Of a stretch of DNA of 64,000 nt, positions 52,136-52,296 are shown piece after piece. This stretch comes from Novosphingobium pentaromativorans US6-1. GTDB taxonomy: Bacteria > Pseudomonadota > Alphaproteobacteria > Sphingomonadales > Sphingomonadaceae. Location of the stretch: contig NZ_CP009291.1 in the NCBI RefSeq assembly GCF_000767465.1, forward strand, positions 496,001 through 560,000, written 5' to 3'. Within the stretch, counting starts at the first letter, position 1. Each line of letters starts with the position of its first letter. A program made the translations under genes and the position numbers. The notes beneath the pieces were generated by a model that had not been told where the DNA came from, made no database searches, and worked only from the letters and a program-made list of their open reading frames with translations.

Positions 52136-52144
52136 TTATCCACG
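52136..52144 (+). promoter_or_regulatory. DnaA-box-like sequence at the edge of the GANTC array
   Basis: TTATCCACG differs in one base from the E. coli DnaA box TTATCCACA and is preceded by TTTTTT. It directly abuts the first GANTC site (52144). A second, weaker CTTTCCACA is at 52307-52315. DnaA control of ccrM timing is an attractive idea but unproven; the sites could be chance. Confidence 0.3.
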
Positions 52145-52296
52145 AATCCGGCGAGTCGCAGCCACCATATCTAGAGTCGCGGGGCGCCCGGCAGACTCAA
52201 TATGCGGTGTCGGATTCGTTTTGTTCTCCTGTTCCGATTCCTGAATCGGCAGGAGTCTCCACGAGTCGCGACTTGACGGCGAGTCCGGAAAGACTC
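52144..52296. promoter_or_regulatory. Array of eleven GANTC (CcrM) sites upstream of ccrM
   Basis: GANTC starts at 52144, 52153, 52174, 52194, 52213, 52236, 52243, 52253, 52263, 52281 and 52292. Steps are 9, 21, 20, 19, 23, 7, 10, 10, 18 and 11 bp, close to multiples of 10, so the sites lie mainly on one DNA face. The array occupies the non-coding gap between the divergent sulfotransferase gene and ccrM. It includes CCGATTC-CT-GAATCGG (52234-52249) and GAGTC/GACTC pairs. GANTC is the target methylated by CcrM, and in Caulobacter GcrA reads it. Confidence 0.75.

Follow-up and report, generated by a model that had tools for sequence, protein, structure and literature searches.

The question raised by this locus was whether the dense cluster of CcrM target sites (GANTC) upstream of the methylase gene ccrM in Novosphingobium pentaromativorans US6-1 is a control element of that gene and, if so, how it might be read. 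A central question in the Alphaproteobacteria, studied mostly in Caulobacter, whose ccrM leader carries GANTC, is how cells confine CcrM to a brief part of their cycle. A preliminary description of the window (the whole 64,000-nucleotide stretch of DNA analyzed here) had proposed a phased sensor of 11 sites. We conclude that the array is almost certainly a selected ccrM control element. It is not uniform; it is a composite of a core promoter, an inverted repeat characteristic of sphingomonads, and further sites at steps of approximately 10 bp.

The gene downstream of the array (52358–53491, plus strand) encodes a GANTC adenine methyltransferase of 377 aa with an N6/N4 methylase domain (N6_N4_Mtase) and a C-terminal RAMA domain, as in the solved CcrM. 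The best solved match of the product was PDB 6pbd, 'Modification methylase CcrMI' (7.9e-155); judged by its sequence, it is a CcrM orthologue. The divergent neighbor is a sulfotransferase-like gene (Sulfotransfer_4; 51372–52073, minus strand; start at 52073, or at 52121 for the longer ORF). Beyond it lies rnhB, encoding RNase HII (50491–51363, plus strand, for the ORF as listed; the true start is probably further in), which in many relatives is the immediate same-strand neighbor of ccrM. A recount of the array (52144–52296) reproduced exactly the eleven GANTC described before, at 52144, 52153, 52174, 52194, 52213, 52236, 52243, 52253, 52263, 52281, and 52292, with steps of 9, 21, 20, 19, 23, 7, 10, 10, 18, and 11 bp. 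The gene coordinates agreed with the original placement in noncoding DNA: all 11 sites fall in the gap that separates the sulfotransferase gene from the ccrM ATG at 52358.

This density stands out from the surrounding DNA. The window as a whole is GANTC-poor, with 117 sites compared with a shuffle mean of 315 (SD 16; 100 shuffles). Such depletion fits methylation of GANTC by CcrM and is in line with the class-wide report, in the available extracts of Gonzalez et al. (2014; PMC3973325), that GANTC is underrepresented in genomes and overrepresented between genes. The chromosome was sampled as 60 stretches of 20 kb (1.2 Mb, or 30% of the 3.98-Mb contig C1, one of six contigs). The sample held 2104 GANTC, which is 1.753 per kb or approximately 0.27 per 153 bp, and no density similar to that of the array was found in it, the fullest 153 bp having 5 sites compared with 11. 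The initial estimate of approximately 0.5 sites expected by chance fits the base-composition expectation of 3.33 per kb; at the sampled rate, the Poisson chance of 11 sites in one fixed place is approximately 1e-14 by our own arithmetic. A DNA search of the same genome for a second copy returned the array itself and three matches of approximately 15–32 bases, with E values of 1.6 or worse. Two more clusters of 4 GANTC in 153 bp were seen within approximately 640 bp at L168:4672–5310 (G000:C1:2774672–2775310), apparently outside the longest nearby ORFs.

The array was also found in related sphingomonads. The comparison included 130 ccrM loci: 80 from relatives, 49 from the genus (29 plus 20, of 97 genus genomes with a match), and the window. 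Homology and the nearest ATG served to place the start codons, and one locus (L026) was labeled only 'Proteobacteria'. The upstream 250 bp were all distinct, yet the loci are related and do not represent 130 independent cases. Anchored counts cover the 115 loci that fitted the anchor template (15 did not), and the promoter template fitted 100 of these. The median count in the 250 bp before ccrM was 7 GANTC, compared with a background of 0.30, and 110 of the 130 loci had at least 5. The count of 11 thus holds for the window, whereas the family ranges from 2 to 13; in 350 bp, the 49 genus loci had 4–14. Enrichment of GANTC upstream of ccrM was 23-fold, and the highest value among 24 control pentamers of equal make-up was 3.1-fold. 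Array density was independent of rnhB adjacency: the mean number of sites was 6.8 with rnhB directly upstream (58 loci), 7.4 with rnhB further off or otherwise placed (58 loci), 7.2 without rnhB within 3 kb (5 loci), and 7.6 where there was too little DNA to tell (9 loci).

At the nine sites common to 23 close loci (window included), the fixed letters were 93.5% conserved and the N 85%, compared with 70% for other noncoding columns. The sister genome G097, whose CcrM is 99% identical, had three base differences in 52144–52357 (at 52187, 52189, and 52236). A class-wide set contained 80 loci from 78 families, taken from 116 other genomes with a match, strong matches first, with the weakest and fragments left out; one of them (L112) belongs to the window's own family. 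The mean in this set was 3.4 GANTC in 310 bp, compared with a background of 0.6, and 11 of the 80 loci had none before ccrM. The class-wide excess indicates that GANTC before ccrM is old; long phased arrays and complete dyads belong mainly to the sphingomonads.

Distances between pairs of sites clustered at approximately 10, 20, 29, 39, 49, and 60 bp. The periodogram of the 121 loci with at least four sites peaked at 9.9 bp with a power of 5.05, compared with a null of 1.09 (SD 0.08, null maximum 1.43). Minimal changes were counted on the CcrM tree in a test that scores one-base site shifts as changes; this gave 9.9 bp on both sides of the array (0.78 and 0.65), with 0.62 and 0.49 still obtained at 10.5 bp, and none of 2000 random placements was as strong as the observed phasing. 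Among 771 non-anchor sites, 88.8% deviated by no more than 2 bp from a multiple of 9.9 bp, where chance is 50%; counted by distinct columns, the figure was only 63%, again with a chance level of 50%. In 97 of 100 loci, the spacing from the upstream block to −35 fell into one of three classes that differ by one helical turn each (48–50, 58–61, and 69–71 bp). The proposed phasing at approximately 10 bp is real, with the amendment that the best period is 9.9 bp and not the 10.5 bp of relaxed B-DNA; the difference could, for instance, reflect protein binding or wrapping of the DNA.

Within the window, the statement that the steps are near multiples of 10 bp applies to 10 of the 11 sites. The other, GATTC at 52236–52240, is out of phase and gives rise to the 23- and 7-bp steps; in the sister genome (locus L082) it reads AATTC, so that the site is absent there. 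Three GANTC upstream of −35 follow one another at exact 10-bp steps (52243, 52253, and 52263; 52243–52267). In the class-wide set, the 19 loci with at least four sites gave a peak at 10.2 bp of 1.87, below the null maximum of 2.02.

The downstream end of the array coincides with a predicted ccrM core promoter (52273–52301, plus strand), consisting of TTGACG at 52273–52278, a 17-bp spacer, and the −10-like CAGTTT at 52296–52301. The spacer holds GAGTC (52281–52285), and GACTC (52292–52296) ends in the C that opens CAGTTT. The window thus has GANTC in and beside a sigma-70-type promoter, as predicted from sequence and with a weak −10 match. TTGAC with two GANTC was present in 95 of the 130 sphingomonad loci; the first GANTC began 6–10 bases after the first T of TTGAC, and the second was at 19 in 93 of the 95. 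This second GANTC runs into CA...T, a −10-like hexamer at 17-bp spacing, with CA...T itself present in 57 of the 95. Of the first 40 class-wide loci, 25 had TTGAC and two GANTC, 23 of these with CA...T; the fixed pattern was present in 35 of all 80. None of 764 background TTGACs (plus strand, sphingomonad loci) had both GANTC. The idea that promoters with GANTC touching the −10 form a wider class in this genome was rejected, since GANTC showed no peak at +19 of 1387 TTGACs in the 1.2-Mb sample, with 2 cases at that offset; the core layout may therefore be largely special to ccrM. In class-wide ccrM promoters (for example L116, L118, L129, L131, L140, L141, L147, and L236), a GANTC was seen repeatedly 14–16 bp upstream of TTGAC, in many cases as GATTC with an A-rich stretch after it; the 31 class-wide loci scored had 17 sites at these offsets.

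The upstream part of the array contains an inverted repeat, CACCATATCTAGAGTC and GACTCAATATGCGGTG separated by 15 bp (52163–52209), which comprises two copies of the half-site GACTCnAnATnnnGnG and includes the GANTC sites at 52174 and 52194. The window dyad matched 20 of 20 conserved positions; the best of 2940 background segments matched 14 (spacer 15). Scores of at least 16 of 20 were obtained for 119 of the 130 sphingomonad loci (spacer 14–16 allowed), and a score of 18 for 2 of the 80 class-wide loci, both from other families (spacer 15); because the motif was derived from sphingomonad loci, only the class-wide and background scores are independent. The 1.2-Mb sample of the same chromosome contained no perfect half-site and 11 with one mismatch, and across the sphingomonad loci all 126 occurrences of a closely related dyad pattern lay upstream of ccrM.

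Ten half-site positions were strongly conserved in both arms among the 85 loci selected by their inner site at column −39. Pairing at the variable arm positions was near or below independence, the largest excess being 33 compared with 29.8 expected, and this lack of excess pairing favors an operator acting as DNA over a stem in RNA. At the inner dyad sites, the N is invariant where the site stands at column −39 (GAGTC in 85 of 85) or −19 (GACTC in 99 of 99), unlike that of most other sites, and the conserved flanks are long. A sequence-specific protein, besides a methyl reader, therefore seems to act at the inner dyad. Next to the dyad, the outer GANTC (GATTC) is followed by a block, GTTTTGTTC, conserved in relatives (52213–52226, plus strand).

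Sites resembling those of other cell-cycle regulators were also present. The DnaA-box-like TTATCCACG (52136–52144, plus strand) abuts the first GANTC and has one mismatch to TTATCCACA, which we took as the DnaA-box consensus; 12 of 115 loci had such a sequence at the upstream array edge. A weak DnaA-box-like sequence, CTTTCCACA (52307–52315, plus strand; two mismatches), lies downstream of the promoter. Of 100 related loci, 56 had a box with at most one mismatch in the interval from promoter to ATG, compared with 6 of 2418 background segments. The motif TTAACC, presumably a CtrA-like half-site, did not occur in the 62 bp upstream of the window TTGAC when scored as an exact motif; it was found in 42 of the 116 sphingomonad loci with a scored promoter. 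Extra GANTC averaged 1.26 in these 42 loci and 2.74 in the 74 without an upstream TTAACC. A swap of CtrA sites for GANTC was rejected as an explanation: the CcrM tree (99 rows) yielded 6 independent pairs on supported branches, among which the GANTC class rarely differed, and the first 40 class-wide loci (4 with TTAACC, 27 without) gave no trend.

According to the available extracts of Brilli et al. (2010; PMC2877005), the Caulobacter and rhizobial ccrM promoter is CtrA-activated, and DnaA sites are noted mainly before those ccrM genes that lack CtrA sites; DnaA-box-like sequences also occur in the present loci. The Caulobacter/rhizobial promoter and the one in the window serve the same gene and have methylation sites before it, but the window has many more sites, an inverted repeat, and no TTAACC in the 62 bp before TTGAC.

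The position of ccrM on the chromosome bears on when its promoter would be hemimethylated. The GC skew of C1 flips near 2.41 Mb and near 0.78 Mb and is noisy, with four negative-arm stretches at or above zero and one positive-arm stretch below. The flip near 2.41 Mb falls at an AT-rich stretch with several DnaA-box-like sequences, bordered on one side by hemE (URO-D, minus strand) and on the other by a gene for a PF03618 kinase/pyrophosphorylase. We take hemE to mark oriC in this class, and L204:5940–6240 (G000:C1:2415940–2416240) is the probable oriC. This region holds the densest GANTC cluster of the 1.2-Mb sample (5 in 153 bp), second to the ccrM array. On the assumption that C1 is a closed circle, ccrM (0.548 Mb) sits at approximately 90% of the arm that runs from the probable oriC to the skew-inferred terminus; it would thus be replicated late, and its promoter would be hemimethylated late.

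A gcrA gene was found in the N. pentaromativorans US6-1 genome. Of the genus genomes searched, 54 of 59 had gcrA, as did 42 of the 43 good ones; the 5 of 59 in which it was not found were four incomplete assemblies and one that was 98% complete. Upstream of the gcrA start codon in the same genome are two GANTC 9 bp apart, at a distance of 26–39 bases (L111:1462–1475).

Starting from the observed sites, their density, conservation, and phase, the layout of the core promoter, the operator, and the approximate chromosomal place, we propose that the array is a methylation-read autoregulatory switch of ccrM, probably read by GcrA, and give this reading a probability of about one in two. CcrM would methylate the array sites, and GcrA would bind the methylated sites, with the GANTC pair in or next to the core promoter setting polymerase activity and the phased upstream sites letting more GcrA spread along one side of the DNA. 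Late hemimethylation would permit a burst of ccrM expression, and the new CcrM would re-methylate the sites and close the burst. The outcome, by extension from the behavior of GcrA in Caulobacter, would be a replication-gated, self-limiting switch. Many sites would sharpen its off-step: with independent methylation of each site at a common rate, our own arithmetic gives a relative spread of completion time of 0.41 for 11 sites, compared with 1 for one site. The parts of this proposal differ in strength. Dependence of ccrM control on methylation is likely, and the balance tips slightly toward GcrA as the main reader of the array. That full methylation is the 'off' state is an even call, and the invariant operator leaves room for a second reader besides GcrA.

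The Caulobacter work that guides this proposal comes from Fioravanti et al. (2013; available extracts of PMC3667746). There, GcrA is dimeric, contacts RNA polymerase, and prefers fully methylated GANTC. At ctrA P1 it protects −35 to −10 when the DNA is fully methylated and only the vicinity of the site when it is hemimethylated, and the authors suggested that the fully methylated GcrA complex may hold back polymerase. Mutation of GANTC cut the activity of four Caulobacter promoters by 60–80% and produced no change at the GcrA targets CCNA_00697 and ctrA P1. Methylation activation, as at the four promoters, would make ccrM feedback positive and not negative; by analogy with mipZ, the sign of control here could equally be positive. 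The Caulobacter GcrA promoters (mipZ, podJ, flaY, pleC, and tipF, together with ctrA P1) resemble the one here in having GANTC beside or inside the promoter. mipZ has two juxtaposed sites, and the GcrA and CcrM genes are both present here. In contrast to those promoters, the regulated gene here is ccrM itself, and the Caulobacter GcrA probes carried one to three sites compared with 11 here, with no phased upstream array or dyad described in the extracts (PMC3667746). The survey by Brilli et al. (2010; PMC2877005) reported GANTC before cell-cycle genes in 37 alphaproteobacteria at 0.4–1.5 sites per promoter on average, and in its available extracts draws no methylation control of ccrM. Such an array is described neither there nor in the extracts of Gonzalez et al. 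(2014; PMC3973325), the sources on which its apparent novelty rests.

The upstream half of the array might instead be an operator for a dedicated ccrM regulator, a symmetric dimer on the GACTCnAnATnnnGnG repeats whose binding is gated by methylation of the embedded GANTC, so that the array would consist of two systems, this operator upstream and a GcrA-type promoter downstream. The conservation of ten positions in both arms with pairing near or below independence, the dyad scores within and beyond the sphingomonads compared with the background maximum, the absence of a perfect half-site from the 1.2-Mb chromosome sample, and the absence of the dyad pattern elsewhere in the sphingomonad loci all speak for such an operator. 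The sphingomonad scores are partly circular, however, and this account comes without a candidate protein and leaves the 10-bp stepping of the other sites unexplained; we regard it as possible but doubtful. Also tentative is the idea that control of sphingomonad ccrM combines a phased 9.9-bp methyl-GANTC scaffold with a ccrM-specific inverted-repeat operator, whose reader would be gated by methylation and might be CcrM itself, acting via its RAMA domain. If true, ccrM would have a methylation thermostat of its own, unlike the circuit driven by CtrA in Caulobacter.

Several other readings of the array were considered less probable. SeqA sequesters GATC clusters at E. coli oriC, and those clusters, like the array, are dense phased methylation sites near replication-linked DNA, with a different methylase and a different motif. 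By this model, a binder of hemimethylated GANTC would act cooperatively on the phased sites after passage of the fork and silence ccrM for a fixed time. The spacing of sites by one to three turns along one face, and a probable oriC that holds the densest sampled cluster, would suit sequestration, but we know of no hemimethylation-specific GANTC binder in the Alphaproteobacteria, and a delay at a late-replicated ccrM would hit the enzyme when it is needed. GcrA, moreover, prefers fully methylated DNA (available extracts of PMC3667746), and we consider sequestration improbable. The cluster might also titrate or load CcrM (or GcrA) beside its own gene without a direct effect on transcription. Density alone would suit titration; at 1.753 per kb, however, the 3.98-Mb contig has approximately 7000 sites, of which eleven are a tiny share, and the sites are locked to promoter and dyad positions, which makes such a buffer quite improbable. 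An RNA hairpin formed by the inverted repeat in a ccrM leader was rejected as very improbable: its arms are complementary at most of the conserved positions, but there was no covariation at the variable ones, no Rfam match up to E = 1 in 51900–52500, and the predicted promoter is downstream of the repeat. A chance or compositional cluster without function has a negligible probability, as it is contradicted by conservation in 130 loci, density, the phase test, and pentamer enrichment, and no point in its support was found.

In sphingomonads, the ccrM promoter bears a conserved and countable set of phased CcrM targets, and natural loci differ in their number (2 to 13) and, by single helical turns, in their spacing. 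These variants make the dose and geometry of promoter methyl marks directly testable, and the array hints at a possible further regulator with its own operator. In several rnhB–ccrM tandems of other families (for example L129, L147, and L151), CACAAGATRTTG, which resembles one dyad arm, is found in the apparent 3′ end of rnhB as read by eye; the operator may overlap coding DNA there.
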